DNA of 44,023 bases, taken from a virus. Shown piece after piece: positions 1 through 39,961 of this stretch. Location of the stretch: the IMG/VR virus record IMGVR_UViG_3300027833_001313, positions 1 to 44,023 of that record; one strand, given 5' to 3'. The translations under genes were made by a program, and so were the position numbers. The first letter of the stretch is position 1, and the number at the start of each line of letters is the position of its first letter. Below the pieces are notes generated by a model. That model worked only from the letters and a program-made list of their open reading frames with translations. It was not told the DNA's origin and did not search any database.

Positions 1-452
1 AAATCAGCAATCCTCGAACCTATAATACTCTTTGGTTTATCATTATCTATTAAAAATTCTTTAAATAAGTATTCTGATTCTCCATGGAATGTGTGATCCA
101 CAAAAGGATGATCGTTATGAAACTGTGCAGGGCTGTCAGGAACTTGCGGTCCTCCGAATACAATTAAACAGTTAGGAAACTTTTGTTTAATTGCTTTAGC
201 TAACTTTAAATTATAATTTTCATTCCAGATATACGAACTAAATGCAGCAATGTCAATAGTATCTATACTTTCTACAAAGTTGTCTATAGGCAGACGTTCA
301 AAAATAAAATCTTTTGCACAGTATGTTTTATTAACATACAAGTCTGTTTTAGCATAACTCCACAGTCTAGCAACAGCATACGGAAGCCAGTGTGTCTCAA
401 ACTTGCCGAAGCCAATAGGAAAATTAACTTGAAAGAAATATATATTTTTCAT
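1..452 (-). CDS. B12-binding-domain radical SAM protein, N-terminal part (runs off the window)
   Basis: Reading from the ATG at 450-452 gives about 150 residues open to the window edge. It starts MKNIYFFQVN, followed by an alternating beta/alpha pattern with IDIAAFSSYIWN, then FPNCLIVFGGPQVP and a HGESEYLF segment. This layout is typical of the Rossmann-like cobalamin-binding domain that precedes the radical SAM barrel in B12-dependent radical SAM enzymes (the BchE/P-methylase class). The radical SAM CxxxCxxC motif would lie beyond the window, so the catalytic half is not seen. The start overlaps the stop of the upstream epimerase as ATGA, which implies translational coupling and membership of the same operon. 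The family call is good; substrate and reaction are unknown. Phage-borne members are usually found near glycan genes, as here. Confidence 0.7.
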   Translation of the reverse strand, partial: MKNIYFFQVNFPIGFGKFETHWLPYAVARLWSYAKTDLYVNKTYCAKDFIFERLPIDNFVESIDTIDIAAFSSYIWNENYNLKLAKAIKQKFPNCLIVFGGPQVPDSPAQFHNDHPFVDHTFHGESEYLFKEFLIDNDKPKSIIGSRIAD

Positions 453-1342
453 AGCATTAATTTTATCCCTTGCTCTAAAGAGGTTTTAGGATAAATGCCT
501 AACTGTTTTTGAAGTGTATTATCGCAATAACGATTTAGTACACCGACTGGTTTTTCTAATACACATGTAATATCTAGCACAGGTGTATTGTATATTAGTT
601 GATGTGCTAAAGTTATAACGTCAACAAAGCTAGTAGCAATACCTGTGCCTATATTAACTACTCTATATTGGTCAGTATCAGTTAAGCACCATTCTAGTGT
701 ATCGAGTACATCATCTATGTAAACAAAGTCTCTTGTTTGTTTACCTGTCCCCCAGACTTCAATATTATCTGGATTATTTTTTACAATATTAATAAGATTA
801 GGCATAGGGTAGTCTAAACTTTGTTTAGGTCCATACCCACTAAAAGGACGAATTATTGATATTTTAGTATTAATAGTATTACGCAGTTCCCAAAGCATTC
901 GTTCAGTAGTTAATTTTGACCAACCATACAAATGATCACTTACTCCGATATTATTTTTGGAAAAGTCAATATCAGTTTCACATAGGGGGCGATGTACTTC
1001 CTGTTGATACGTTGTTGGATAAACTGCACTACTACTTGGATATATAAACTGTTTAGGAGGGCACTTTAATACTTTTTCTAACACTATTCTGTCAAGTTCA
1101 ATATTTTTTGCAATTGACAAAAAGTTACTTTCAATAGCTTCTCTTCCTTTTACATATGCGGCAAAATGAAATATTGCATCATATACTACTGTTATATCAA
1201 AACTATGAATAGATTGAACATGTGTAGTATAAATGCCTGGAACTATGTCCACGCCGACAACTGTATGCCCTTGCACAGATAATCGATGTGCTAATTCAGA
1301 TCCTAAAAATCCGCTGCTGCCGCTTACTAGGTATCTAGCCAT
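449..1342 (-). CDS. NAD-dependent nucleotide-sugar epimerase/dehydratase (extended SDR)
   Basis: A 297-residue extended short-chain dehydrogenase/reductase that probably epimerises, dehydrates or reduces a nucleotide sugar in the cytoplasm. The N terminus has the Rossmann glycine motif GSSGFLG (residues 8-14) and an acidic residue at the end of beta2 (VD, 31-32) that favours NAD over NADP. The catalytic SSS cluster is at 103-105 and YGWSK (Y139, K143) supplies the YxxxK pair. TRDFVYIDDV (203-212) is the usual substrate-domain signature of UDP-glucose 4-epimerase and GDP-mannose dehydratase relatives. It is somewhat short for the family (310-340). Its start overlaps the end of the preceding gene by 16 nt and its stop overlaps the next start by 4 nt. 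The exact sugar cannot be told from motifs alone. Confidence 0.87.
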   Translation of the reverse strand: MARYLVSGSSGFLGSELAHRLSVQGHTVVGVDIVPGIYTTHVQSIHSFDITVVYDAIFHFAAYVKGREAIESNFLSIAKNIELDRIVLEKVLKCPPKQFIYPSSSAVYPTTYQQEVHRPLCETDIDFSKNNIGVSDHLYGWSKLTTERMLWELRNTINTKISIIRPFSGYGPKQSLDYPMPNLINIVKNNPDNIEVWGTGKQTRDFVYIDDVLDTLEWCLTDTDQYRVVNIGTGIATSFVDVITLAHQLIYNTPVLDITCVLEKPVGVLNRYCDNTLQKQLGIYPKTSLEQGIKLML

Positions 1343-2550
1343 TTATAAATAAAGTCCTGTGTTTGTGTAATCGAATGTAATTTTCGATTAATAATATTTT
1401 GTCTATTATGTAATCGTAATTTCTTAGTTTGTTGGTGTAGTCTATTAATATTTATTTGACAAATTTTTTCTATTTTATTAATCAACGCCCAAAAGCGTGT
1501 AGTATCGTCTACTATATTATCATACTCTTTGCAATCTAATTTATATCCCAATCTAGTAAGTTGTTGTCCGGTTCCCTTGCTATACATATGTAACGGCAAA
1601 CAATAATTACTTAAACTCCTAAATGTTTTTTCAGATAACTTTATACAATCAGTTTCACCTATAGTATTTTCTGTAATAACACTATATACACTATCGTAAT
1701 AAAAATCTGTTATTGAATTAGTACTACATGTTTGGTCTGTAAAATCTCTTCCATCTGCAATATAAGGAAGTGTGTCTAAAAATTCTTGCCAGCGACTATC
1801 ATCTATATTAAACATTTTAAGATTAGTTTTATCAAAATGAAAATCTAATGTTTCGTTAACGCTGGGCATACTAACATAACCGTATTTTAATAAATCCCTT
1901 TTCCATAGCTCATATACCAAACACTGCCTCAAAGGATTTGGCTGTCGATTAAGACAAATAAAATGCTTTGCGGGCTTAGTTATAGTAACATCTAACTCAT
2001 CTATAGACTCATACAAATAAACAGTGGATATATTGATTGTGCAAGTTACATTATTTAATTTTGCCCATTTAGCATACTCATTCTCTGCAACAGAATTCAT
2101 CGTGATATACAATATGTTAGCTGGGTCTAACTTAAATTTATCAAGTTGATCATGTAAGTTTTTAAAAAAGTTATATGTGGTGTTTGAATAACCTTCGTTC
2201 ATATCATTAATAATAAACAAACACTTGCCGGCTTGCTGTGCTTGTATTGCTACTGTGCTTACATTATTAAATGCATTATTAGTCCACTGATACGGTTTAA
2301 GCAACGGTGTTAGTTCGTATATAAATTTGTTGTTACAATCAAGAATATGACTGTGCGTTATGTTTTTGCCTAAAATTGCGTGTAGTTTAGAGTAAGTATA
2401 CGGATGTCTTTTACTTTCAAGATTATAGATAGTATTAGTAACAGAATAATGAGAATCTTCATAATTCTCAGGTGATGTTAGCAAATCTAGACTCTGACCG
2501 TTAGGCCAAGGGCCACTTGGTCCTATCCAGTCATGTGCCAGTTGTATCAT
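1327..2550 (-). CDS. Unknown protein with glycosyltransferase-like C-terminal motifs
   Basis: A 407-residue protein that I cannot assign with certainty. Visible landmarks are FICLNRQPNPLR (197-208), a segment VITEN...SEKTFRSL (291-313), and GTGQQLTRLGYKL (326-338) followed by an acidic YDNIVDD stretch. The order 'ITE(N/T)...SEK(T/L)F..L...G....L..LGY' recalls the donor-binding half of GT-B sugar transferases such as the fucosyltransferase-like family. It also recurs in uncharacterised proteins of marine T4-like phages. The first 190 residues carry no motif I recognise. It starts with an ATGA overlap on the radical SAM gene and overlaps the epimerase downstream by 16 nt, so it is translated with them. 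A sugar-transfer role is inferred from motif shape and context only. Confidence 0.55.
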   Translation of the reverse strand: MIQLAHDWIGPSGPWPNGQSLDLLTSPENYEDSHYSVTNTIYNLESKRHPYTYSKLHAILGKNITHSHILDCNNKFIYELTPLLKPYQWTNNAFNNVSTVAIQAQQAGKCLFIINDMNEGYSNTTYNFFKNLHDQLDKFKLDPANILYITMNSVAENEYAKWAKLNNVTCTINISTVYLYESIDELDVTITKPAKHFICLNRQPNPLRQCLVYELWKRDLLKYGYVSMPSVNETLDFHFDKTNLKMFNIDDSRWQEFLDTLPYIADGRDFTDQTCSTNSITDFYYDSVYSVITENTIGETDCIKLSEKTFRSLSNYCLPLHMYSKGTGQQLTRLGYKLDCKEYDNIVDDTTRFWALINKIEKICQININRLHQQTKKLRLHNRQNIINRKLHSITQTQDFIYKWLDT

Positions 2551-4136
2551 ACTACATTATCAACAGTTATGATTTTAGATTTTACTACCTCTTTAGCTAA
2601 TCTACATTCTTCGTAAAATTCTGCCATTTCAGGAAAAGTTTCTAGGAAATTAGTTCCGTCACGAGAATCTTTAACATTAAGAAAGTCATAAAGTTCTGCT
2701 CTAGGTTTGATAACAGTTTTATAATGTTCGGCTGTTCCAGGCTTGGTTGTCCAAGATATTTTTAATCGGTGTTCTGTAATCGATTTAAGTTTATACATTT
2801 CGTTAAGTTCAAAAGAAAGATGCATTTGCCATTTATTATCAATTGTGTTTGCTGCCATATAGTCCATTGTAGGTAACATATAATCTTGTACTAATTTATC
2901 AGTAGATATTTGTGCGTCTAAAAACCGCGGATGTCTTAAATACGGAATATCTAGTCCTAACGGAACTACATGAGACGGCGAACGCTTTTTTAATTCATTA
3001 TTAGACATTCCTTCTCTAAAGGAAAATGGAAGGTTTTCTTCCCACCAAAGCACGGGTGTATTAAAGTGATATTTTTTCTTCATCTCTAATTGCCATTCTA
3101 GTAGCTTACCAAAACTTGTAATACTTAATACATTATATGCTGCCATAATAACGACTTTAACATTGCCTAGACTAGCAAGTTGTTCATATCGTTTTTTAAA
3201 AACCTCAAAGTCTAATCCTCTACGCACGTATTCTGCACGTTCTCCGTATCCTTCGACACTAGTATAAATTGTAACGCTTTTAACTTTATTATCTTTAATT
3301 GTTACTAACTTATCAATAAATCGATCCCATATGCTATCAACAACACCTAAATTAGTATTAATCGAAAAATCAAGTTTATCGTTAGGATTTTCAAAAATCC
3401 AATCCATAGTTTTAAATGTTTCCTTACTCATTAACGGCTCACCGCCGGTAATTCTATAATGTTCTAACTTAGAATAAATTTCAGGAAACCATTTCCAAAA
3501 TGCTTCAATGTAAGGATTGTAGTCTTTATTTTTATATGCTAAATTATCAAGATCTTGCCAGCCTTGCACCCAACGTTCATTATCGGCTAATCCTTCTAAA
3601 ACTTTCATTGGTCCTTTTTGTTTAAGGTCATTTACCCATGTAGTACTAAATTCAGGGCCGCAATATAAACAACTCATATTACATGCATTACTAAAACTAA
3701 CTTCTAAGTATGTAGGAGTTATGTTTTCGTCTCCTGTTGACGCTATAATATCGTCATGACGGTCAAGTGCCCATGATTTCATACTTTTAAAACTACGATC
3801 GCTAATATTATTGTCATCTTCAATTCTCCAGCAATAGTCACATTCTGAAGGTTTTTGATTATTAAGCATTTCTTTTCTGGCAGTCTTTAAATGCTTAGTA
3901 TTAAATAACGCCCGATAATCTTCTTTTAATTCATCTAAAGGTATTTTATGCATTTTTGGGTGGTGACAGCTATGTACATGGCCTGTTCCTAAATGCATTG
4001 TAACTTGTGTAAATTTTGCAAGACAGAAGCCGCAACCAGTATTGTTCAGTAGTTTTTGAACATTTTCAACATTTGAGGGATCACTAGTTAATTCGCCGTT
4101 TTTGTCTTTAAGTAATTTAATATCATTCTTTTTCAT
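2547..4136 (-). CDS. Twitch-domain radical SAM protein
   Basis: A 529-residue radical SAM enzyme. The SAM-cluster motif C152-x3-C156-x2-C159 (ACNMSCLYC) follows the strand TYLEVSFSN, and RITGGEPLM (GGEP at 231-234) is the standard SAM-binding strand. Further cysteines lie before the barrel: C35/C38 (CGFC), C57 and C99/C102 (CDYC). They are spaced like a half-SPASM (Twitch) auxiliary iron-sulphur site but placed N-terminally. SPASM/Twitch enzymes typically act on peptides, proteins or sugars by hydrogen abstraction. Neighbouring genes are glycosyltransferase-like, so a carbohydrate or glycoprotein substrate is possible, but no precursor peptide is visible. The gene overlaps both neighbours by ATGA. 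Family confidence is high; function is unknown. Confidence 0.85.
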   Translation of the reverse strand: MKKNDIKLLKDKNGELTSDPSNVENVQKLLNNTGCGFCLAKFTQVTMHLGTGHVHSCHHPKMHKIPLDELKEDYRALFNTKHLKTARKEMLNNQKPSECDYCWRIEDDNNISDRSFKSMKSWALDRHDDIIASTGDENITPTYLEVSFSNACNMSCLYCGPEFSTTWVNDLKQKGPMKVLEGLADNERWVQGWQDLDNLAYKNKDYNPYIEAFWKWFPEIYSKLEHYRITGGEPLMSKETFKTMDWIFENPNDKLDFSINTNLGVVDSIWDRFIDKLVTIKDNKVKSVTIYTSVEGYGERAEYVRRGLDFEVFKKRYEQLASLGNVKVVIMAAYNVLSITSFGKLLEWQLEMKKKYHFNTPVLWWEENLPFSFREGMSNNELKKRSPSHVVPLGLDIPYLRHPRFLDAQISTDKLVQDYMLPTMDYMAANTIDNKWQMHLSFELNEMYKLKSITEHRLKISWTTKPGTAEHYKTVIKPRAELYDFLNVKDSRDGTNFLETFPEMAEFYEECRLAKEVVKSKIITVDNVV

Positions 4137-5017
4137 TTAAATTTTACATTCCTAGGATTGGGGACATATATTGATTTAAAAAATTTACTTTGCTGTGCAT
4201 CTAATGGATTTGCTGCAATAGGCAATTCTAACTCATTAATAAGTTTAGTACCGTATTCTTGTATTTCATATTCAATGTCTTCAATTGCGACAAATGATGT
4301 TTTCCATAAGTCGTTTAAATATTCAAAGTCTCTAACTTGAACATGATCCCATTCTGTACGCATTGTCATAAACACACCTGCCCTTGCACCTAAGATGGCC
4401 CATAGACCATTTTCTACATCCGAACCAATCATAGTCCATATTAATAGTCTATTATAATTTTGCCACCATACTGATTTTAAGTCTTTAATTGACTTGCCTC
4501 GGTTTAAAGACATTTTTACACCTTCACGAAACCCTGCTCGCCAGGCTTGTTGCGGCGTTAAACTTATAATACTTGTACTATAGTTTTCATTAAGTTGTAA
4601 GTAGTTGTCAAAGTAACAAAATTCAATATTAGTTTCGTCTGATCCGTCTGTATTTTCGTGTGTCTTCATATTGTTTACAAAGTCTCTAGTCCACATTTTG
4701 ATACTGCCGTTACCGTACTCTAATCCGTTGACGTCAATTTTACCTGCCCAACTAAACTGATATTCTGGTGTTGCTCCTAACTCGTCTAGGTCTAACTCTA
4801 CTTGTAAAAACTTAGGATCAATAATAGTATCACCGTCAATTGTAATAAAGTTTTCAGTTTCACTAATAGCTGCACAGGCTTTATGTGCCGCATCTGAACC
4901 TTCTACACCATGTACACGTTTTGCCCAAGGTACTTTGCTTAACAAGTCTGCATAGTTTTTTTCTGCATTAGGTTCGTCATAACTTAAAAATATTATATCT
5001 TGATCAATTATTTTCAT
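4133..5017 (-). CDS. Glycosyltransferase-like protein with DGD motif
   Basis: A 294-residue protein. It opens with an N-terminal Rossmann-like half (IIFLSYDEPNAEKNYADLL), then VHGVEGSDAAHKACAAI and FITIDGDTII with the acidic DGD at 61-63. This pattern matches GT-A (family 2-like) transferases, in which DxD binds the metal-nucleotide-sugar complex. The C-terminal half has an Arg/Trp-rich section (WRAGFREGVKMSL) and no transmembrane segment, which suggests a soluble enzyme. It starts by TAATG overlap with the gene before it and ends by ATGA overlap with the radical SAM gene, so it belongs to the same polycistronic unit. Donor and acceptor are not known. A GT-like fold is fairly secure; activity is inferred. 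Confidence 0.7.
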   Translation of the reverse strand: MKIIDQDIIFLSYDEPNAEKNYADLLSKVPWAKRVHGVEGSDAAHKACAAISETENFITIDGDTIIDPKFLQVELDLDELGATPEYQFSWAGKIDVNGLEYGNGSIKMWTRDFVNNMKTHENTDGSDETNIEFCYFDNYLQLNENYSTSIISLTPQQAWRAGFREGVKMSLNRGKSIKDLKSVWWQNYNRLLIWTMIGSDVENGLWAILGARAGVFMTMRTEWDHVQVRDFEYLNDLWKTSFVAIEDIEYEIQEYGTKLINELELPIAANPLDAQQSKFFKSIYVPNPRNVKFK

Positions 5018-5559
5018 TATACAGTTCCAGTTTTGTGTGTATGTAGTAAATGACTACTGCGAGTAACAACCGATGCATATGTGTTTGCTGAACATCCTTG
5101 TATTTTAATACTATTTGAATATACAAAATCTTTTAAATTTATAGTAAATTTATCAAATAATATAAACCTATTAGTAGCATCTACAACATAGTATTCTTTA
5201 AAATAGTCTTCGCCATATGATAGCCTAGTACGAGTTGCATCGTCTATAAAGCTATTTACAGTCCAAGATTTTTTATTCTGCACAATTTGAATTCCGTATA
5301 GTGGTTTAGTGCGAATACGTTGAATAATTCCTGTATCGTGATGGACGCCATCTAGGTCAAAATTTGGCGAAGTAGTACACATAACGCACATTTTTCCCTT
5401 TACTTGAATATCTTCAACAACTTTGTATTCGTGAAGAAGCTTTCGACTAAAAGAAAAGTCAAGATATAATTCTTCTGTGATTTCAATACATAATTCAGCA
5501 TCATTGGTATTAGCAGCCGATTGTATATTACCATCTTCGTCATAGTGTATATAAAACAT
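5017..5559 (-). CDS. Conserved-looking protein of unknown function
   Basis: About 180 residues, beginning MFYIHYDEDGNIQ. This ATG overlaps the upstream stop as TAATG and has AAAGGA a few bases before it, so I prefer it over an in-frame GTG-type start 21 nt upstream. The protein looks beta-rich (EDGNI, ELYLDFSF, YGIQIV, FILFDKFTINLK), has several cysteines (including CVMCTT), and shows no signal peptide or membrane span. No family is recognised. Its place between two glycosyltransferase-like genes, with overlapping ends on both sides, suggests it serves the same pathway, for example as a small beta-sandwich accessory. That is inference from context only. Confidence 0.6.
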   Translation of the reverse strand: MFYIHYDEDGNIQSAANTNDAELCIEITEELYLDFSFSRKLLHEYKVVEDIQVKGKMCVMCTTSPNFDLDGVHHDTGIIQRIRTKPLYGIQIVQNKKSWTVNSFIDDATRTRLSYGEDYFKEYYVVDATNRFILFDKFTINLKDFVYSNSIKIQGCSANTYASVVTRSSHLLHTHKTGTV

Positions 5560-6383
5560 TATGTTTTTTCCTTTAACCAAGCTAACATATCATCTGTTAG
5601 GAATTCGTCTTCAACATAGTGCAGTACACCTGATTGTTTATATCCATTAATATAGATGGAATTACCATAATCCACAGTTAACACGTCGGTCCACTTAGAG
5701 GGCACATTTATTAAATTTTGTACACGTGGTTTCATATGAGTAAATGTCATTGGACTATGATCTAAACAATATCCTTGCATATCTAAAATCCTTAATGCTA
5801 TAGCTACACTTACATCTACACTGCACCATTTTTGCAAATTATTAGGAGTGTATTTTTCATAAACTACTTGCCAATTTTGCATAATAATATCTAGTAATTT
5901 AAAAAAGGTTGCAGTCTCTTCACACTTAGTAAATTGATACATACCAGAATATACATCAGGTAAATTATTTTCTTCAAATGTTTTTCTATAATACTTTGAT
6001 GTTATTATTTCATTTCTATAAGTAGTAACATTTTTAGTAAACAATAAAGAAGGAGTAGTTCTAAAGTGTTGCCAAGTAGTACTAATGTTGTCTAATACTA
6101 ACATATCAACATCAAATACCATTGTATTTTCATAAGGAGTTAAGTGATATACTTTCCAACGATTGTCTATTTTCCAATCACTTCCTATAGCTAGGTCGCC
6201 CCAGGGTATAGGTATAATCTTATCAAATACAGACTTATATGTATCTGGTACTTCGTCGTTAGTAATTAAACTTATGTTTGTTCGTGGACTGTTTGCAAGT
6301 ACACTTAAAGCAAGTGCATACGCTTGCCTAATATAATCTGTTTTTGAATTATTTTGTGCAACAAGACAAATACCGTTACTCAT
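5559..6383 (-). CDS. GT-A glycosyltransferase-like protein, copy 2 of a paralogous pair
   Basis: A 274-residue protein starting MSNGICLVAQNNSKTDYIRQ. The ATG at 6381-6383 is chosen over an upstream in-frame TTG; it overlaps the end of the preceding gene by 8 nt. The first 100 residues follow the glycogenin/family-8 plan: a first strand, then an NNS...DYI helix, ISLITND, and a metal-binding DVD (91-93) inside MVFDVDMLVLD. The N terminus is clearly related to that of the gene immediately before it (GVVLFAFNNSSIDYIKQ), so the two arose by duplication. No membrane segment is seen, so it is probably cytoplasmic. A sugar transferase acting on host or phage glycan is likely; donor and acceptor are unknown. 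Confidence 0.7.
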   Translation of the reverse strand: MSNGICLVAQNNSKTDYIRQAYALALSVLANSPRTNISLITNDEVPDTYKSVFDKIIPIPWGDLAIGSDWKIDNRWKVYHLTPYENTMVFDVDMLVLDNISTTWQHFRTTPSLLFTKNVTTYRNEIITSKYYRKTFEENNLPDVYSGMYQFTKCEETATFFKLLDIIMQNWQVVYEKYTPNNLQKWCSVDVSVAIALRILDMQGYCLDHSPMTFTHMKPRVQNLINVPSKWTDVLTVDYGNSIYINGYKQSGVLHYVEDEFLTDDMLAWLKEKT

Positions 6384-7227
6384 TAGCAAACTCCGTATCG
6401 ATAAAATTATTTAAGCTAAACTTATTCATTACATGCACTGTTGCATCTGATAACGCAACTAATAAATAATCCCAATCACGTTGTGCTAAAAGTTGTATAC
6501 TATCATTTTTTATATCTACTAATAAATCTTTATCAAGTGATACCCACATATCAGAAGGAATTGGTTTTGGCCAATTACTATCTTCAACAAACCCGCGCAT
6601 CATATGTACTGCAATACTAAAGGCAAAATCATTTCTAAATTTTGTTTCAACAATATCATATGTTAATCTATAATAGTTATAATTTTCTTTGATGTGCTGC
6701 ACTGTATCAAATACAATTTTTGCAGTATCACTTTTAGTAAAATATAAAATAGTTGCCCAATACATAGGTATTGACTTGTCACTAATTCTATCAAGACTAG
6801 CGTAATGCTTTTGTGTATTGACCATATGATAATCTTTAGCAATCATAAAGTCTTCAGGGGAGTCAAAGCATGTTAGTAATTTATCGTTACTAATTAATAG
6901 GTCAGTGTCTATTACTAATGTTTTTTCAAATATAGATAATTCGTATGCAGAATCCCTTGCTGAATTGGCCCATATAAGTTTAGGGTATTCTCCATAAATT
7001 CCATCGTGAAATGTTCTAGTAGACGATACAGGAGCATCGCAGTATGTAACTTCGTCAATGTACTTTTTATAAAAAGGAAATTTATCATTAATGTATTCTT
7101 TATTATCAGTAATAAGTTGTACAGGAAGTTTTAAATATTTTTTTATACGCTTTGCACAATAAACTGCCTGTTTAATATAATCAATACTACTGTTATTAAA
7201 TGCAAATAACACTACGCCTTTATTCAT
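6376..7227 (-). CDS. GT-A glycosyltransferase-like protein, copy 1 of a paralogous pair
   Basis: A 283-residue protein with the same plan as its downstream neighbour. GVVLFAFNNSSIDYIKQAV forms the first strand and helix, VQLITDN the second strand, and TLVIDTDLLI carries the DxD (DTD, 107-109). The segment after DxD (PEDFMIAKDYHM) and the later YWATILYFTKS strand fit family-8-like transferases, where a second acidic/His site completes metal binding. The start is joined to the preceding small gene by ATGA. The two copies have diverged outside the N-terminal 45 residues and the DxD strand, which suggests different donors or acceptors. The enzyme class is inferred from motifs; no activity can be assigned. 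Confidence 0.7.
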   Translation of the reverse strand: MNKGVVLFAFNNSSIDYIKQAVYCAKRIKKYLKLPVQLITDNKEYINDKFPFYKKYIDEVTYCDAPVSSTRTFHDGIYGEYPKLIWANSARDSAYELSIFEKTLVIDTDLLISNDKLLTCFDSPEDFMIAKDYHMVNTQKHYASLDRISDKSIPMYWATILYFTKSDTAKIVFDTVQHIKENYNYYRLTYDIVETKFRNDFAFSIAVHMMRGFVEDSNWPKPIPSDMWVSLDKDLLVDIKNDSIQLLAQRDWDYLLVALSDATVHVMNKFSLNNFIDTEFANE

Positions 7228-7571
7228 AGATTAGTTAATCCTTCAACACTTCTATTCTTTTTAATCTTTGCATAGTCATATGCGTACTTTCGAGAGGCAA
7301 AGGTATATACGCCAAGTACTTCTCTTGTGAAATCTTTTAAATTACTTACATTAAACGGAGTATTATTATCATCTAACAGTACAACTTCATCTTGTTCTAA
7401 TGCAAGCATACTTTGACAAAAGCTAATTACATTAGTAGTTACAGATATCTTATGTCCATCTACATAATGAACTAAATTATCGTAATATTGTTTTAAGAAA
7501 ATACTTTTTTGATTGTTTTGAGTTTCTAAAAAATTAGAAAACTCTAGTGCTTTTTCTAGTCGTTCGTCCAT
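7224..7571 (-). CDS. Small unknown protein, first gene of the early cassette
   Basis: A 115-residue protein that I do not recognise functionally. It has an N-terminal helical stretch rich in Lys/Glu (ERLEKALEFSNFL, LKQYYDNLVHYVDG), a middle VLLDDNNTPF segment, and an aromatic C terminus (VYTFASRKYAYDYAKI). A GAGGA ribosome site lies about 10 nt before the ATG. It is the first gene after a strong sigma70-type promoter, so it should be among the first products made from the cassette. Similar short proteins occur in marine T4-like phages, as far as I recall. No membrane helix or cysteine cluster is present. A helper or regulatory role is possible but unsupported. Confidence 0.6.
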   Translation of the reverse strand: MDERLEKALEFSNFLETQNNQKSIFLKQYYDNLVHYVDGHKISVTTNVISFCQSMLALEQDEVVLLDDNNTPFNVSNLKDFTREVLGVYTFASRKYAYDYAKIKKNRSVEGLTNL

Positions 7572-7597
7572 AGATACATCCTCATATACTTATTATT

Positions 7598-7626
7598 AGT
7601 ATATATTCAATCTATCTATATGTCAA
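7598..7626 (-). promoter_or_regulatory. Sigma70-type (early) promoter for the glycan/radical-SAM cassette
   Basis: On the minus strand, TTGACA (7626-7621) is followed after exactly 17 nt by TATACT (7603-7598). The start codon of the first cassette gene is about 27 nt further on. A 7-bp inverted repeat (7584-7590 with 7598-7604) overlaps the -10 box and could be an operator. No NATAAATA late motif is seen in this gap. Confidence 0.8.
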
Positions 7627-7629
7627 GTA

Positions 7630-8541
7630 TTATGTGAATGTATTTGAGCTACCAGTTGAGATAGTAGGGGCTGCAACCTGCACGTTTGATCCAGTAGCAC
7701 GTATATACGATAACGCACTAGTTAGTGTACCTTTTACATTTTCGTCAACTGCTGGGCCTACGCCTGTTTGGTCGCCGGTGTCATCATCTCTATAAATCAT
7801 ACGAATTCTAACGCCATTTGTAATCGAACGTGCTTCAATTTGATAATCGTTTTCTGAGTATGGATTTGTACCTGTCTTTGATACCAAATAGCGAGCAGTA
7901 GTAGTAAGATCATAATAACCATCATTAATAACAGTACCAGTTGATCCTGTTTTACTAACACCAATATGATCCATAGTAACAACACCTGGTCCTGCGGCCA
8001 TTGATTTCCAATCTAGTGTTTTTGCTTCACTGCCTGTATAAGATAGTGTTGACGAAAATACTAGTTTTCCACCTGCATTAAAGAATGCCTTTGCTGCGTT
8101 TGCACTTGCCCAAGTAAACTGTACATCATGTACTTGTGTGCCGTTCCAATTAGATTTAGTTTTACTTCTAGCCGATGTTGTGCTAGACTGTCCTGCTGCT
8201 ATTGAAAATCTATTTCCCGAAGCTTTGATGAAATTAATTGTGGTTTCAAGTGCATCGTGTATTGCTTTTGTAATTCCGCTATCAGTATTAACCGTTGCTA
8301 ATGCAGGACTTGGTGCTGATCCAACTTGGTGAGTGTAAGCTTTAACTGCATCAGTTTTTAATGCATTCCACGCTGTGGCTGTAACTTTATCACCAGGACT
8401 AACTGACGGAGCCGAAGTTGATTGAAGATATCCAGCTGCTCCTGTTCCTGTTCCTGTTGGTGTGCCCATAACGAGATTAATACCCGATCGTAGTGTAGTA
8501 TACTGTGCTTCGCCTATTTGTTGGCCAACATTAACTGCCAT
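7630..8541 (-). CDS. Virion structural protein (tail/fibre-associated, putative)
   Basis: A 303-residue protein rich in Thr, Ser, Gly and Ala, with almost no cysteine, as is usual for phage fibre or decoration proteins. The N terminus MAVNVGQQIGEAQYTTLRSGINLV and the later segment FFNAGGKLVFSSTL recur in virion proteins of marine myoviruses, as I recall them. It has its own late promoter (TATAAATA at 8568-8575) and a GAGGA ribosome site. It is the last gene of the late structural block before the early cassette. It may form a fibre tip or accessory component that works with the three fibres upstream. The structural role is fairly likely; location in the particle is not known. Confidence 0.65.
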   Translation of the reverse strand: MAVNVGQQIGEAQYTTLRSGINLVMGTPTGTGTGAAGYLQSTSAPSVSPGDKVTATAWNALKTDAVKAYTHQVGSAPSPALATVNTDSGITKAIHDALETTINFIKASGNRFSIAAGQSSTTSARSKTKSNWNGTQVHDVQFTWASANAAKAFFNAGGKLVFSSTLSYTGSEAKTLDWKSMAAGPGVVTMDHIGVSKTGSTGTVINDGYYDLTTTARYLVSKTGTNPYSENDYQIEARSITNGVRIRMIYRDDDTGDQTGVGPAVDENVKGTLTSALSYIRATGSNVQVAAPTISTGSSNTFT

Positions 8542-8567
8542 ATTATATCCTCTTTATTAACTACGTA

Positions 8568-8575
8568 TATTTATA
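8568..8575 (-). promoter_or_regulatory. T4-type late promoter TATAAATA
   Basis: A perfect TATAAATA on the minus strand, 26 nt before the ATG at 8541. Its internal TAA (8573-8571) is also the stop codon of the preceding fibre gene. In T4 this box is read by polymerase carrying gp55, which is encoded at 39095. Confidence 0.8.
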
Positions 8576-10091
8576 CTTTTAAAACACACTCTATTAATTT
8601 TTCTGATTCGTCTTCACTTGATTCTAATGCAATACCAACTAATGCCAACCCTGTAATAGTTGAACATACTCCATCTTCCCAGGCAAATACAGGCTGTCCT
8701 TTTGTTATAACACCTTTTACTCTTACTGGAACACGCCCTTTAAGACCAATTGCTTGGCCATCACAGTCGCTATTCATTAAGTATGCAGGTTCTGCAGATA
8801 TAACACCAATACACATATTGCCTGCGCTTGCTGCTTTTGCTTCAGCTTCGCCGCCAACTGCCATTGCTGTGCCTACTGGATATTCTTGATCAGTTGTGTA
8901 TTTTTCTGCAAGGTCAGCATAACGTGCGCTAGTTGCAGTACCTTGGAATAGTACTGCGTTTAAGTTTCCACTTGCATCTCTAACTGCAACAGTATTACTA
9001 GTACCAGTTCCAATAGTATCAACTGCACCTGGTCTTGCTGAACCGCCAACTACTAAAGCACTTGTTTTTTCTGATAATCCGTAAAGATTAGAAGCATGCA
9101 CTTCACTAAATAATTTTGTTGCAGTTCCTAAAGTAACAGATTCGACGCCATTGCCAGCAGTATTGCTTCCTGGAACAACTTCTCCAGGCTCCATTGTTAC
9201 AATATTCTTAACTAATCCGCCTGTTTGTTTTGCTCTAAAACGTATTTCGTCGCCTTGTTGATTACTAATAACACCTTGGTTGTCGTTTTCAATAAAGATT
9301 TTTAAATCTAGGCCTGCACCAATTGCAATACCTGCATCAGTCTGAAAGTTAGTAACTTCTGTAAATACACTCGGTACACCTGGAGTTGCAGTAACATAAT
9401 TAGATGCCAATAATCCGTTTAACTTATCAGCATTAGTTGCAGTGCCGTGGAATCTTGATGTTCCAGTAGTAACACCAGCAGTAGCATTTAATGTATTTCT
9501 AAGAGTAACGCCTGGATGAATAAAATCAAATCCAATAATTGCATTTTCAGCATCGTTACTGTCTATTTCAAAAGAGTCATGAGTGCTAATAATAAACAAC
9601 ACATCATTTGTTGCACCATTACTCACAGTAGCAGCAATAATATTTCTAGCAACTGCACTAGTATCACGTACTGTTTTACTTTGCATTTGTGTAATGCCCG
9701 AGCCGGCATCTTGCGGACCAACTAGTACAAAGTCTCCACCGTTATAGGCATATAACTGTTCGTTAGTAGTATCCCACCAAAAATCACCAGTAGCTAATCC
9801 TGCAGGGGAAGTTGCACTAATTTCTGCGCCGCCTGTTGTACGCCATTTCGTGCCGTCGTTAAACTTTAGTTTACTATTTGCAGTATCAAACCAAAGTTGG
9901 CCTGTTATAGCCCTTGGTGGCTGCCCTGCCCCAGCAAAATTTTCAAGTAAAAATACAAAATTTTCATTTTGAATTTCACCGTATCCTGCATAGTTTTTGC
10001 CCACTAATTTAATATCAGTTGTTTGATCCAATGTGCCGTCTTGCACAACTGTTAACTGACTTGTGTTATATTTGTTTATTGTATATGCCAT
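8571..10091 (-). CDS. Tail fibre protein, paralogue A (shared N-terminal module, conserved C-terminal domain)
   Basis: A 506-residue fibre. The first ~125 residues form a module shared with the next two genes: a short opening (MAYTINKYN), a VQDGT...IKLVGKNYAGYGE turn, ENFVFLLENFA, then two short repeats of the type GQLWFDT...LKFNDGTKW and GDFWWDT...LYAYNGG...LVGP. This is probably the part that docks to the baseplate. The middle is beta-rich. The C-terminal ~120 residues begin ADLAEKYTTDQEYPVGT and run through GVISAEPAYLMNS and LKGRVPVRVKG. That domain recurs at the ends of phage fibre proteins and may act in folding or as a chaperone-like tip. It has its own late promoter. Receptor specificity cannot be read from sequence. 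Confidence 0.8.
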   Translation of the reverse strand: MAYTINKYNTSQLTVVQDGTLDQTTDIKLVGKNYAGYGEIQNENFVFLLENFAGAGQPPRAITGQLWFDTANSKLKFNDGTKWRTTGGAEISATSPAGLATGDFWWDTTNEQLYAYNGGDFVLVGPQDAGSGITQMQSKTVRDTSAVARNIIAATVSNGATNDVLFIISTHDSFEIDSNDAENAIIGFDFIHPGVTLRNTLNATAGVTTGTSRFHGTATNADKLNGLLASNYVTATPGVPSVFTEVTNFQTDAGIAIGAGLDLKIFIENDNQGVISNQQGDEIRFRAKQTGGLVKNIVTMEPGEVVPGSNTAGNGVESVTLGTATKLFSEVHASNLYGLSEKTSALVVGGSARPGAVDTIGTGTSNTVAVRDASGNLNAVLFQGTATSARYADLAEKYTTDQEYPVGTAMAVGGEAEAKAASAGNMCIGVISAEPAYLMNSDCDGQAIGLKGRVPVRVKGVITKGQPVFAWEDGVCSTITGLALVGIALESSEDESEKLIECVLKV

Positions 10092-10116
10092 ATTTTAAAT
10101 AACCCCTTGTTGCTAG

Positions 10117-10124
10117 TATTTATC
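10117..10124 (-). promoter_or_regulatory. T4-type late promoter GATAAATA
   Basis: GATAAATA on the minus strand, 25 nt before the ATG at 10091, with AAGGGG as the ribosome site between. It lies in the 38-nt gap after the stop of the preceding fibre gene. The spacing matches the other late boxes in the window. Confidence 0.75.
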
Positions 10125-10129
10125 ACAAG

Positions 10130-12022
10130 TTACGGATAAGCAGACGTACTTACAAATGCCCATGCTGAACTAGTAACTTGAAACTCCATTGTATAACGAT
10201 CCGGATTTAAAGTAGCTACACCCGATGCTGTATTTGCTGCTGCAATGTCTGCAACAACTGATTCATTTTGTGTTCCTGCTGCATCAACTGCAAGCAGTGT
10301 CTTTTGTAATACACCCGAAGTATCTGTAGTTACACTGATGTTAATACCAGAAACAGTTGCATTAGCATAACTAGTACAATGTATTCTTGCAATAGTACCG
10401 TTTCTAGCAGCACTTGCCGGACTTAAACTTTCTAATATTGATCTAACATCTACATTTGGTCCTGTTCCAACACCAGGGGCATTTGGACTAGATAGTCCAG
10501 TAATGTCTAAAGTAAATACAATTGGTGCAGTTGTAATTTCTTCGTCAACATATGCTTTATTAGCTGCATCTGCGCCTACTATAGGAGTTGCTACTCCGGT
10601 AATTCGTTGACTATCAATTGTGATAAGTCCGCCAGCTGTAATACTTAATGCGCCATTAGCTGAAATGCTACCTAGATTAATATCACCAGTAACAGTTAAA
10701 CTACCTAAAGTACCAATTGTTGTTAATCCCATAGCAGTATTAACTGTATCTCCAAGTCTTGTTTTAGAAAGTACTTGTGTATTTTCAATTCTGTACTCTT
10801 TGCCAATTGTTAGATCTGCATTTTGGTTAAACGTCCAGTTTCCTGTTGATTGTACCCATTTAATTGTTTTATCAGTTGCGCCTTTAAGTGTAATTCCGCC
10901 TTGATTTGCTGTAGTATCAGTCGGAGTATCTGTTGTGCCTAACTCGATATTAGGATCTTCTACAGTCATTGTAGCGGTATTAACAGTTGTCCGAGTGCCT
11001 TCAACTGTTAAGTCACCTTCCACCGTTAAGTCACCTGTAAACTTGCCGGAACCAGTAACATCTAATGCTACTGTCGGAGTATCTTGATAGATGCCAATTC
11101 TGCTAGTACTAGTGTCTAATGTAAATGCTTCAATAAAGTCGTTTCCTTGCGGAACTCTAATAGCAAAGTCATAATTTAATTGTTTTAATTCTATTGCAGT
11201 AGTTGCACCACTTTCAACTGTCTTAAATGCAGCATATTGTGAATCACCAGAACCAACTATAAGGCCTTCATCGCCTTTAACATATAATGAAGCTTCCATT
11301 TCTTGAGCTACTACTACATTGTTTGAATCACGCTCATTAGTTGCTACAAATGACGAAGCTGCATATGAATTTCCTTGACTATCGACTAAATTTTCAGAGC
11401 TTAGTGCAGTTCCGTTAAATTTGTAGGCTCCTACTATTGTTGGATTAAATCCAACTTCAATTGATCTACCAACTGTATATGGAAGTATATTATAGTCTCT
11501 CTTAGGAGTAAATTGAAATCTACTGTGAATACCTGATAATACGCCACCGATATATTCTGCTAATACAGTACGTGTTTGGTTTCCAGTATCTACCATTGTA
11601 ACTGCTTCTAATCCAGTTTTTCCTTGAGTAGCATTATATTGCGGTCCTACTAATACTAAATCAGTGCCGTCAAAAAAGTGCAACTTATTTTGTTCATTAT
11701 CAATCCAAAGATCGCCTGCTACTAAATTAACAGGCTGTGTAGGGCTTACTGTAGGTGCGCCAGCAGTTTTAAAACTAGTGCCGTTATAAATTTTTAATCT
11801 ATCTTCACTAGTATCATACCACAACTGTCCTTGTAAAGGATTGTTAGGAGCACTAGTTGATGCAAAGTTTTCAATAATTTTTACAAAGTTTTCGTTAAAT
11901 GCTTCACCAAACCCTTTGTAATTTCTACCTACTAGAGTAATATCAGTAGATACTATGTCAATTACGCCGTCTGTAAGTTCTACTAGCAATGCGCCATTAG
12001 TTTTGTTTATTTTATAGCTCAT
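10130..12022 (-). CDS. Tail fibre protein, paralogue B
   Basis: A 630-residue fibre protein. Residues 1-130 are the same docking module as in both neighbours (VGRNYKGFGEAFNENF, GQLWYDTSEDRLKIYNGT, GDLWIDNEQ...LVGPQ). The middle carries a repeated beta pattern, GKFTGDLTVEGDLTVEGT, then VEDPNIELGTTDTPTD and GGITLKGATDKTIKW. That block is common in fibre shafts of marine phages. The C-terminal ~130 residues differ completely from the other two paralogues and probably hold the variable receptor-contact part. Its start overlaps the stop of the upstream fibre gene as ATGA, so the two are translationally coupled. No late box sits directly before it. Confidence 0.8.
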   Translation of the reverse strand: MSYKINKTNGALLVELTDGVIDIVSTDITLVGRNYKGFGEAFNENFVKIIENFASTSAPNNPLQGQLWYDTSEDRLKIYNGTSFKTAGAPTVSPTQPVNLVAGDLWIDNEQNKLHFFDGTDLVLVGPQYNATQGKTGLEAVTMVDTGNQTRTVLAEYIGGVLSGIHSRFQFTPKRDYNILPYTVGRSIEVGFNPTIVGAYKFNGTALSSENLVDSQGNSYAASSFVATNERDSNNVVVAQEMEASLYVKGDEGLIVGSGDSQYAAFKTVESGATTAIELKQLNYDFAIRVPQGNDFIEAFTLDTSTSRIGIYQDTPTVALDVTGSGKFTGDLTVEGDLTVEGTRTTVNTATMTVEDPNIELGTTDTPTDTTANQGGITLKGATDKTIKWVQSTGNWTFNQNADLTIGKEYRIENTQVLSKTRLGDTVNTAMGLTTIGTLGSLTVTGDINLGSISANGALSITAGGLITIDSQRITGVATPIVGADAANKAYVDEEITTAPIVFTLDITGLSSPNAPGVGTGPNVDVRSILESLSPASAARNGTIARIHCTSYANATVSGINISVTTDTSGVLQKTLLAVDAAGTQNESVVADIAAANTASGVATLNPDRYTMEFQVTSSAWAFVSTSAYP

Positions 12023-14124
12023 GCTATCACTCCTGTGTAGATAATATAATTCATAGTTTGATAAGGATTCATTATATTAATTGGGGCGCCCACTTCACTA
12101 AACGAACTACCAATAGGAATAAGAACATCACCACTATTTGATATCTTTTGTGATAAATTTTCAACACCTGTTTGTAAATTAGATGATAATACGCCGTCTG
12201 GAAGATCACTACGCCCATCTACTTCTCTATGAGCATAAAACTGCTGACCTGTTTCTGAAGTTAAATCATGCTGGTGTTCAGGTAAGTTATCTACCCCAAT
12301 AGTAGCAGTATCAGTACCATCTGATGCTCCTAATATACTTGCATTTGATTCTCTATTTCTTGATTCAGGATCTTCATCTGGAGGAGCAACGCCGCCCATC
12401 ATTAAGTTACCTAATGCAAATCTTCCTCTAAGATCAGGAACGTTAAAATATCCTGCACTAGGTGCTGGTCCATAATTATTACTAATTAATTGAAATAATT
12501 GACTGTATACACCAGTACTTAATTCTTGTCCGTTGCAAAATTTCCAACCAGCTGGCTCAACGCTGCCTGCATAAGGCATTATACTAGCAACAGGAGTTAA
12601 TCCTACAATACTATTAAATAAAGTTGATCTAGATACACGCTTTAGCCCTGTATTTGTCCCAGTAGTTCTGTCAATAAGAAATTCATCACTAGATAAACTA
12701 TTAGTCATTTGTTCTTTAGCACTAATAATTGTGTTTTTTAATGTAAGTGCAAACGACTTTACGCCACCACCCGTTTGGCCATCAAATGCATTTTCAACAG
12801 TTTCAACATCACCTGTAAATCTAAATGTTGTCGAACTTGTAAGTTTATCCGAACTGCCTGATTTACCACTTACGTTTCCACTAACCTGGCCTTCTAAGTT
12901 TCCTAAGAATGTAGTTGCATAAATCTTGCGCCAACGATTATCACTTCTGCCAATATTTCTAGTATTGTTAAGATCAGGTAGTATTAAATCACTTGCTGGT
13001 GTATCAACTACTAAATCGTTATTGCCTAAAGTTATACCCTTTTGTACATTTATTGCCTCGCCGATATTAAGAGTTTTTGCAATTCCCAGGCCACCTTTGA
13101 TAACGGCTGCACCGTTATTAATTGTAGTACTTTCAGTTGTGTCATTGGTTTTAATCATGCCACTAGCTAATATATTACCAGTAACATCTAATGCTTCTTC
13201 TGGAGCATCATTATTAATACCAACTCTTAAACTGCTATCAACTCTTAAAACTGTTTTACTGTTGCCTGAATTTCTAACACGAATGTCAATATTAGACCCT
13301 TCGATGTTATGCTGTATAACTCCTGCACTGCCTTCAATACCAATGTTAAGTTCAGCATTAATTCCATATGCAATGCCATTATTGTTTTGTATATTAACTG
13401 GGAAAGTAGTAGTAGATTCAATATCACCTCTTAAAAAATTAGCCGCTGGAATTGATAAATTATTAACAATTAAACTTTCTGCCTTTTCTGCAATACCATA
13501 AAACTTAACATTATTAATTCCGTCAGCGTCAGTATCTCTATTTGCTAAGTTAATGCCTGGTCTAATTTCTACACCGCTAAATCCGTTAATTGTGGCTTTC
13601 GGAATAAACGTGTCAAATGCAATAATTGCAACAACGTTTGCATTAACTTGTATTTCAATAACAGTGTAATCTATATTATTTTGACCAGTAATTGTAGTAG
13701 CAAGTGGACCAGTTGTTAATCCGCTACTAAAACTAGGTCCTACTAATATCCAATTAGATCCAGTAAACATATACAACTGTTGATTATCAGTATCGGCCCA
13801 CAAATCGCCTGTTAATGCTTGAGCATTATCTGGTTGGGTTGTACTCTTTTTAAGTCCACTAGCTGATACCCAAACTGTACCATCATAAATTAGTAATTGT
13901 TCTGTATTGTTATTGTACCATAACTGCCCTTCAATAGGAGTTGATGGCTCTGTCGGACTTGCAAAATTTTCTAGTAAGTGCAATAAGTCTTCAGCAATTG
14001 CTGCGCCGTATCCTGTGCTGTTTCTCCCTGGAAGTTTTATGCTAGTAACAGTATTAATTGTTCCATCTTCGACTACAATAGGATTCTTTTCAGCACTATC
14101 AGTAAATTGTATTGTGTACGCCAT
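12019..14124 (-). CDS. Tail fibre protein, paralogue C, with C-terminal tail-collar (gp12-like) domain
   Basis: A 701-residue fibre. Residues 1-135 are the shared docking module (KLPGRNSTGYGAAIAEDLLHLLENFA, GQLWYNN, GDLWADTDNQQLYMF). From about residue 515 it carries the phage tail-collar domain: MPYAGSVEPAGWKFCNGQEL, then YSQLFQLI..NYG, FNVPDLRGRFALG, HQHD and a closing PYQTMNYIIY. This is the receptor-binding-type domain seen in T4 gp12 short tail fibres, so the protein may be the functional counterpart of the short fibre. HQHD could bind metal, as the gp12 histidines do. GAGGG precedes the ATG. It is 4 nt after the upstream structural gene and shares that gene's late promoter. Confidence 0.85.
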   Translation of the reverse strand: MAYTIQFTDSAEKNPIVVEDGTINTVTSIKLPGRNSTGYGAAIAEDLLHLLENFASPTEPSTPIEGQLWYNNNTEQLLIYDGTVWVSASGLKKSTTQPDNAQALTGDLWADTDNQQLYMFTGSNWILVGPSFSSGLTTGPLATTITGQNNIDYTVIEIQVNANVVAIIAFDTFIPKATINGFSGVEIRPGINLANRDTDADGINNVKFYGIAEKAESLIVNNLSIPAANFLRGDIESTTTFPVNIQNNNGIAYGINAELNIGIEGSAGVIQHNIEGSNIDIRVRNSGNSKTVLRVDSSLRVGINNDAPEEALDVTGNILASGMIKTNDTTESTTINNGAAVIKGGLGIAKTLNIGEAINVQKGITLGNNDLVVDTPASDLILPDLNNTRNIGRSDNRWRKIYATTFLGNLEGQVSGNVSGKSGSSDKLTSSTTFRFTGDVETVENAFDGQTGGGVKSFALTLKNTIISAKEQMTNSLSSDEFLIDRTTGTNTGLKRVSRSTLFNSIVGLTPVASIMPYAGSVEPAGWKFCNGQELSTGVYSQLFQLISNNYGPAPSAGYFNVPDLRGRFALGNLMMGGVAPPDEDPESRNRESNASILGASDGTDTATIGVDNLPEHQHDLTSETGQQFYAHREVDGRSDLPDGVLSSNLQTGVENLSQKISNSGDVLIPIGSSFSEVGAPINIMNPYQTMNYIIYTGVIA

Positions 14125-14128
14125 CTAA

Positions 14129-14743
14129 TTATCCCTCATTAAACCCAGTTAAACTTTGAACCCTAACCGTATAATCAATTTGTATTAACCTATTAAGTGA
14201 TTTTTGTACAGGATGAAATATAACATGTGTTAATAATCTTCCAGTTCCATCTGCATTATACGCCTTTAATCCCAATTCGTCAAACACATATAAGCTTTCT
14301 AAATTAGTAGCTGTATCAAACGCATCTTGGCCACTAGGTTCACCGTAGTCTAATAAACATGTTACTAAAATATCAGTATAATTAGTACCACTTACATGAC
14401 GTGTTTCAATCTTATTACGAGCAGGATCAAGATTGTTTACACTACGATCATCTACTACTTTAGTAAATGTTTCATTATACAAACTAGCATTTGTGCCTGT
14501 GCTGTTTGGAGTTAAGTATGTAATAATACCTGTTGGGTCGACGCTAGTTCCGCCGTTACCAAATCCCATTTGATAAATCCAACCTGTGCCTGCATTGCCT
14601 AAACTTTCTGCAAGACTAATACTCATATTTTCATAATGAATAGCATTGCGCTTGTCTACAATAACTTCTCCAGTTTCTGGATTGTGTATTTTAATGTGCC
14701 CTTGTAACAGCACACCGTTTTGTTCATTTAATTTATCTGTCAT
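14129..14743 (-). CDS. Virion structural protein, unknown position
   Basis: A 204-residue protein lying between the giant baseplate gene and the fibre genes. Segments such as GVLLQGHIKIHNPETGEVIVDKRNAIHYENM, IYQMGFGNGGTSVDPTG and FDELGLKAYNADGTGRLLTHVIFHPV point to a compact beta-rich fold. As I recall, close relatives are widespread in marine T4-like phages as virion proteins. By position it could replace the T4 gp8-gp11 group that connects fibres to the baseplate, but no T4 protein is recognised. It is driven by the late box at 14772-14779, with AGG about 10 nt before ATG. Structural role likely; identity unknown. The long stretches quoted are split by variable loops in the full protein. 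Confidence 0.6.
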   Translation of the reverse strand: MTDKLNEQNGVLLQGHIKIHNPETGEVIVDKRNAIHYENMSISLAESLGNAGTGWIYQMGFGNGGTSVDPTGIITYLTPNSTGTNASLYNETFTKVVDDRSVNNLDPARNKIETRHVSGTNYTDILVTCLLDYGEPSGQDAFDTATNLESLYVFDELGLKAYNADGTGRLLTHVIFHPVQKSLNRLIQIDYTVRVQSLTGFNEG

Positions 14744-14771
14744 AGTTTTATACCTATCATCCTACTGTTAG

Positions 14772-14779
14772 TATTTATC
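14772..14779 (-). promoter_or_regulatory. T4-type late promoter GATAAATA
   Basis: GATAAATA on the minus strand, 28 nt before the ATG at 14743. Its TAA (14777-14775) is also the stop codon of the giant 4949-residue gene, so promoter and stop are the same bases. Confidence 0.75.
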
Positions 14780-39932: not shown

Positions 39933-39961
39933 TTGACATCATTTACATTATCGTGTATAAT
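39933..39961 (+). promoter_or_regulatory. Sigma70-type (early) promoter for gp47-gp46
   Basis: TTGACA (39933-39938), a 17-nt spacer, and TATAAT (39956-39961): a full consensus promoter. It lies in the 65-nt gap after gp55, 32 nt before the gp47 start. Confidence 0.88.

Follow-up and report, generated by a model that had tools for sequence, protein, structure and literature searches.

A predicted early glycosyltransferase core and an exchangeable radical SAM cassette behind the tail fibres of a T4-like phage

The host-recognition clusters of pelagimyophages combine tail fibres, enzymes of glycosyltransferase family 8 (GT8), and cassettes of radical S-adenosylmethionine (SAM) enzymes, and their authors suggest that they change the host surface (PMC7029224). 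The lipopolysaccharide (LPS)-type clusters of the cyanophages P-SSM2 and S-SSM7 contain epimerases, nucleotidyltransferases, and several glycosyltransferases, with carbamoyltransferases in a second cluster, and superinfection exclusion was proposed for them (PMC3037559, PMC7824862). Here we analyze nine minus-strand genes (o9 to o1) next to the tail fibre genes in the IMG/VR record IMGVR_UViG_3300027833_001313. The entire record of 44,023 bases is referred to as the window. As in the pelagimyophage cluster, a variable island with GT8-type and radical SAM genes is present behind a VrlC-type giant gene and the tail fibres in the lineage of the window. The pelagimyophage cluster runs to the neck gene gp14, while the far end of the island was marked by genes for an HNH endonuclease and an ATPase in G003 and by the same HNH endonuclease gene in G005. 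A fixed early core and a promoter switch are absent from the pelagimyophage description in the part covered. The cyanophage LPS-type clusters are located near hli03 or phoH and not at the fibres as here, and radical SAM enzymes go unmentioned in PMC7824862. Compared with the pelagimyophage and cyanophage clusters, as far as these sources describe them, the fixed o9-o8-o7-o5 core, the conserved promoter switch, and the joint at which cassettes are swapped appear to be new. A first-pass annotation of the window had considered radical chemistry to lie outside ordinary O-antigen sets. This needs tempering, since the pelagimyophage clusters already pair GT8 with radical SAM enzymes and a published T4-like genome has 12 radical SAM genes (PMC5332604).

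The nine open reading frames span positions 3-7571 and overlap throughout, by 1-16 nt, as first annotated, if o6 and o7 begin at ATG, or by 1-22 nt with the listed TTG starts. Numbering starts with o9, which adjoins the fibres, and runs down to o1, which is truncated at the record end. The genes upstream of o9 were named s1-s5. The nine genes and the joint between the two modules described below are:

7224..7571, minus strand: o9, 115 aa, first gene of the predicted early unit and most reliable marker of the core
6376..7227, minus strand: o8, glycogenin/GT8-like glycosyltransferase with an invariant DTD motif
5559..6389, minus strand: o7, glycogenin/GT8-like glycosyltransferase with a DVD motif, paralogous to o8; its ATG is codon 3
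5017..5580, minus strand: o6, 187 aa, probable ATG start at codon 8
4133..5017, minus strand: o5, GT-A-like protein with a DGD motif, at the end of the fixed core
4133..4140, no strand: recombination joint between fixed core and exchangeable cassette, equal to the o5/o4 overlap
2547..4136, minus strand: o4, radical SAM enzyme of the N_Twi_rSAM type with a Twitch region at the N-terminus, start of the exchangeable cassette
1327..2550, minus strand: o3, GT-B-like glycosyltransferase
449..1342, minus strand: o2, nicotinamide adenine dinucleotide (NAD)-dependent sugar epimerase/dehydratase, PF01370
3..452, minus strand: o1, N-terminal part of a B12-binding radical SAM enzyme, incomplete at the record end

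Relatives of o4, o5, and o3 were collected from viral contigs, and 89 contigs remained after dereplication. The genes o9, o8, o7, and o5 were all present in 66 of the 89, and their order was kept in 65 of these 66. A fibre homologue was located within 6 kb upstream in 54 of the 55 contigs with enough upstream sequence, and in 61 of 79 dereplicated contigs o5 was followed by a Twitch gene at a distance of no more than 1.5 kb. Since these loci had been picked by o4, o5, or o3, a second sample was picked by o9 alone. In this sample o9-o8-o7 was found in 47 of 47 loci with room, o5 in 37 of 37, and a Twitch gene in 36 of 37. Sampling of the best 80 favours close relatives, the E-values of the contig scans are relative to the candidates, and records in IMG/VR can be fragmentary. 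In each of twelve long records (131-382 kb), o9 was present as a single copy with an o8-like gene adjoining, and six of them gave 11-16 matches to the Twitch model per record. Altogether, hundreds of IMG/VR contigs from large, uncultured aquatic phages show this arrangement, some of them in records of 260-380 kb. The fixed core is o9-o8-o7-(o6)-o5, and almost all relatives hold it in this order immediately behind the tail fibre genes. The first-pass annotation had expected a recurring block and had named scattered, unlinked homologues as the result that would speak against it; the block was recovered and such scattering did not occur. The two radical SAM genes accompanied sugar functions in relatives, also as expected.

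A contig binned in a metagenome-assembled genome of Neomarinimicrobiota (L136, 5722-11407) carries o9-o8-o7-o5-Twitch in this order, and we therefore regard it as phage sequence within that bin.

The nine genes did not behave as the single cassette that had been annotated. Positions 1-4140 of the window (o4-o1) matched contig L004 at 87.5% nucleotide identity and positions 1443-4140 matched L001 at 90.7%, while positions 4133-15028 (o5 through the fibres) matched L081 at 79.4%. The Twitch gene of L081 was merely 40% identical to o4 at the protein level. The window is a recombinant of two phage lineages with the switch within the o5/o4 overlap. This breakpoint rules out a single nine-gene unit. 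Pairwise similarities over 47 loci gave the same picture: o9, o8, o7, and o5 were intercorrelated at 0.67-0.89, and the similarity of the first Twitch gene correlated with that of the core at just 0.44-0.51. The fibre gene s2 correlated with the core at 0.75 (o8) and 0.82 (o7). In the diverged contigs L002, L003, and L004, o4-o3-o2-o1 is followed by sulfotransferase-like and SGNH-hydrolase-like genes, and L011 keeps this block partly. The sulfotransferase-like and SGNH-hydrolase-like calls were read from motifs, and Pfam matched none of those tested. The locus thus consists of two modules, a fixed glycosyltransferase core and a separately inherited, exchangeable cassette that opens with a Twitch radical SAM gene and is o4-o3-o2-o1 in the window.

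In T4-like cyanophages, early genes were assigned sigma-70-type promoters and late genes the motif NATAAATA (PMC2984593). We compared both promoter types across the relatives for the following features:

7598..7626, minus strand: predicted sigma-70 promoter TTGACA-N17-TATACT, within the 58 nt that separate s1 from o9
7630..8541, minus strand: s1, 303 aa, fibre-associated, at the end of the late fibre cluster
8568..8575, minus strand: predicted T4-type late promoter of s1, TATAAATA, contrasting with the o9 promoter
8571..14743, minus strand: tail-fibre-like s2, s3, and s4 and the conserved protein s5

Expected values were derived from mononucleotide shuffles, and neighbouring genes served as real-sequence controls. 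The late motif was present at the correct distance before s2 in 79 of 94 cases, before s1 in 24 of 27, and before s5 in 12 of 15, where 0.5-5 were expected. Before o9 it was found in only 6 of 99, which is about chance. A sigma-70 consensus score of at least 10 of 12 was reached before o9 in 82 of 99 cases and in 90 of 109 of a wider dereplicated set, with about 4 expected from shuffles. Sigma-70 scores before s2-s5, o8, and o7 were at or near chance. The o9 unit with its sigma-70-type promoter and without the late motif classes as a T4-type early unit, and early expression is predicted. Since the fibres have late promoters and o9 a near-perfect sigma-70 promoter, the cassette forms a unit of its own that is predicted to be early, in line with the label "early-type" given at first. 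The promoter comparison rules out that the cassette is part of a late fibre operon.

Two further promoter-like sequences were seen elsewhere in the window: a perfect TTGACA-17-TATAAT at 39933-39961 on the plus strand, ahead of an SbcD-like gene that is early-class by homology, and TTGACT-17-TATAAT from 39044, which overlaps the start of the gp55 gene. The former serves as an example, within the window itself, of the early promoter type predicted for this phage.

The glycosyltransferase character of the core was examined by profile and structure comparison. In a PDB profile search o7 matched glycogenin (4.2e-6). The own PDB match of o8 reached only 0.17, but o8 is a paralogue of o7 (hhalign 99.8%), and D107/D109 of its DxD motif are invariant among homologues. 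By profile similarity to solved enzymes and the DxD motif, o7 and o8 are predicted GT8 glycosyltransferases. The structure model of o5 had a predicted local distance difference test (pLDDT) value of 90.6. Foldseek (E 1e-4) returned 23 structural matches at E<=1e-3, nearly all of them glycosyl- or nucleotidyltransferases, with template modelling (TM) scores of 0.24-0.39 and a capsid glycosyltransferase of PBCV-1 at the top. Searched against PDB profiles, o5 found nothing above chance level, and profile comparison of o5 with o8 revealed no sequence relation; on its fold o5 is probably GT-A-like. No family assignment was obtained for o6 and o9. Although o9 has at least 572 relatives in IMG/VR, no cultured phage matched at E<=0.1, and a profile search of the pelagimyophage HTVC008M, a scan run without a positive control, gave no match to o9. 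A tblastn search of 50,697 phage records found no match for o3, o4, o5, o7, o8, o9, or divergent homologues of o5 and o8.

The gene o6, located between o7 and o5, was kept only in close relatives. It is the sole fast-changing core gene, with 32-62% across the eight relatives where it was detected.

The Twitch radical SAM, epimerase, and B12 radical SAM genes of the first annotation were all recovered in the cassette, and o3 is probably GT-B-like on its fold. The o4 protein scored 286.1 bits against N_Twi_rSAM (NF033640) over residues 37-508, with a curated cut-off of 170. The radical SAM motif CxxxCxxC at C152/C156/C159 and also C38, C57, C99, and C102 are invariant in the homologue alignment. 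By this score o4 is assigned to the N_Twi_rSAM family of Twitch radical SAM enzymes, to which the phages studied here have up to 16 matches per record. The model of o3 (pLDDT 81) showed GT-B-type structural matches with TM scores of 0.4-0.5, the best being SdgB (Foldseek 6e-5, TM 0.47-0.49), the GtfA/B complex, and TarM. The PDB profile search with o3 found nothing. The o2 protein is an NAD-dependent epimerase/dehydratase (PF01370, 117.2 bits, cut-off 20.9), but assignment to a single reaction (equivalog) failed, the best being GDP-L-fucose synthase with 76 of 500 bits. The truncated o1 carries the start of a B12-binding domain, and its full-length homologue in L004 (595 aa) combines a B12-binding with a radical SAM domain. 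The best relatives of this homologue are KedN5-type B12 radical SAM C-methyltransferases, but it stayed under their cut-off with 225.4 of 700 bits.

High-scoring Twitch genes were also seen on contigs assigned to Bdellovibrionota and other Deltaproteobacteria (L138-L140, L143, L144, L147, L150), with two copies at several loci. Such bacteria may have donated the phage Twitch family or received it. At the Bdellovibrionota loci examined, the Twitch neighbours gave no hint of a pathway, being mostly housekeeping genes, with more radical SAM genes at two loci.

About 10 kb downstream of o5 was sampled per locus. The 747 island genes fell into 176 clusters, and content was highly variable. Clusters behind o5 comprised Twitch and other radical SAM enzymes, short paralogues of o5, o3-like genes, a carbamoyltransferase, a PseC-like aminotransferase, UDP-glucose/GDP-mannose dehydrogenase, a cytidylyltransferase-mannose-6-phosphate isomerase fusion, and a nitroreductase-like gene. 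Most assignable genes have radical SAM or sugar functions. The CxxxCxxC motif was present in 182 of 445 same-strand genes behind o5 and in 22 of 145 bacterial control genes. A transmembrane-like window was found in 9 of the 445 and in 36 of the 145 controls, and four or more such windows in none of the 445 compared to 10 of the controls. We concluded that the island consists of soluble enzymes without a visible flippase or polymerase. Genes of the Wzx/Wzy or gtr type (multi-span flippase or polymerase, lipid-carrier transferase) were not seen in the sampled 10 kb.

Taken together, we favour an island, expressed early, for the assembly and diversification of a glycan, and consider this overall reading rather probable. 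The assignment of the pathway to the class of early glycan islands is held with somewhat more confidence. A sugar-building pathway had been suggested at first, and it is supported by the family and fold assignments and by the sugar chemistry of the cassettes. The reading as a whole also draws on the fixed gene order, the promoter switch, the matching promoter of the SbcD-like gene, the exchange of the cassette and its weaker correlation with the core, and the GT8 and Twitch-like genes of Vibrio phage K566 described below. Several observations weigh against it. Neither o7 nor o8 matched the Pfam GT8 model PF01501, and the likeness of o5 to known GT-A folds is weak, with TM scores below 0.4. Genes for a lipid-carrier transferase, a flippase, a polymerase, or a ligase were not seen in the parts read. 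On Bdellovibrionota chromosomes, the nearest bacterial relatives of the Twitch genes lie outside sugar clusters. Finally, 6 of 57 core loci had no downstream Twitch gene, and radical chemistry is therefore optional.

According to the favoured reading, host RNA polymerase would transcribe the island from the o9 promoter soon after infection. The core glycosyltransferases would attach a common sugar stem to a cytoplasmic acceptor, and the cassette enzymes would make or alter the sugars added after the stem. In the window, the GT-B enzyme, the epimerase, the Twitch radical SAM enzyme, and the B12 radical SAM C-methyltransferase-like enzyme may produce an unusual sugar, e.g., a methylated one. A swap of the cassette would alter the glycan structure and leave the stem unchanged. 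The acceptor would most likely be a host envelope glycolipid such as the LPS core, and its modification would deprive rival phages of their receptor. GT8 enzymes acting on the LPS core are cytoplasmic and require no flippase, and the small number of membrane proteins is therefore compatible with a host envelope target. Because early control favours a target that is needed before virion assembly, a glycan on the host envelope is likelier than one on the virion, although the envelope taken by itself falls a little short of an even chance. The host envelope as target agrees with the host-surface proposal for pelagimyophages (PMC7029224). More speculatively, and in our view rather improbable in its full form, the phages may possess a modular glycan system. 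The early core would make an invariant stem, and the joint behind o5 would exchange radical-SAM-driven sugar cassettes. The resulting serotype-like diversity of surface glycans would mark infected cells (or virions) and exclude rivals, and the Twitch copies would represent a new class of carbohydrate-modifying enzymes. If the favoured reading holds, these phages would alter a surface sugar soon after infection and swap the chemistry at a defined joint, Twitch radical SAM enzymes would gain a testable function, and cassette exchange would be linked to competition between phages.

Virus-encoded enzymes glycosylate virions in PBCV-1 and in mycobacteriophages. Decoration of the phage's own fibre or capsid proteins remains the main rival because of the position next to the fibres and the capsid- and adhesin-type fold matches; both for the mechanism and for the virion as the target we regard it as unlikely. 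The fixed location, the near lack of membrane proteins, and the joint drift of core and fibres (s2 with o8 and o7) fit this explanation, as do the best fold matches, PBCV-1 capsid glycosyltransferase for o5 and adhesin O-glycosyltransferases for o3. However, these matches are weak and spread over many glycosyltransferase classes, and the early promoter of o9 is sharply unlike the late promoters of the fibres, so that early enzymes would have to await late fibres.

A glycosylated secondary metabolite or a modified peptide, used in conflict with other phages or the host, is a still less likely product. The radical SAM matches include enzymes of natural products and of ribosomally synthesized and post-translationally modified peptides (KedN5, SunS-like fold), the islands hold the carbamoyltransferase and nitroreductase-like genes, and a metabolite cluster was proposed for cyanophage S-SSM6a (PMC7824862). 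Yet no precursor peptide, peptidase, or exporter was noticed, the fixed part consists of glycosyltransferases next to fibres, and the o1 homologue scored below the KedN5 cut-off. Hypermodification of DNA, with transferases glycosylating phage DNA and radical SAM enzymes altering bases, is very improbable: o3 aligned weakly with T4 alpha-glucosyltransferase and predicted early expression would fit, but no base-modifying partner was seen in the sampled islands, and location and exchange pattern follow the fibres and sugar genes. A zone in which unrelated passenger genes pile up behind the fibres without a common pathway would account for the variable content and the exchange at junctions, but is the least probable of all and already disfavoured by the near-invariant core order, the o4-o1 block with its sulfotransferase-like and SGNH-like genes, shared in full by three diverged contigs and in part by one more, and the dominance of radical SAM or sugar functions.

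Two cultured phages provide laboratory handles. In Vibrio phage K566 (OZ196521), a jumbo phage, several Twitch-like radical SAM genes surround a Pfam GT8 gene (10705-21167), and an annotated gene for PagP (lipid A acylation) is located about 6 kb beyond these genes; this phage differs from the window in that no homologue of o9, o7, o8, or o5 was detectable. Sinorhizobium phage Phosso (PV764938, 469 kb) has a cupin gene and several radical SAM genes (18626-26369) behind homologues of s5 and the fibres, followed by an HNH endonuclease gene. It differs in that the o9-o5 core and the TTGACA promoter were not found, though promoter rules of its host may differ.

The structural genes mark the phage of the window as T4-like. 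Besides baseplate wedge and hub genes it has a late sigma factor, SbcCD-like genes, and a 4,949-aa virion protein. A PHROG search with s1 gave no match. Jumbo phages such as SCTP-2, Atu_ph07, Phosso, Munch, and PA5oct have baseplate wedge proteins with 34-38% identity to that of the window. The moraphage lineage, for which Bacteroidota hosts are predicted (PMC12619734), was considered as a candidate lineage. The 4,949-aa protein (14775-29624, minus strand; phrog_10938) is partly similar to head closure Hc2 and occupies the slot of the giant gene at the VrlC position in this lineage.

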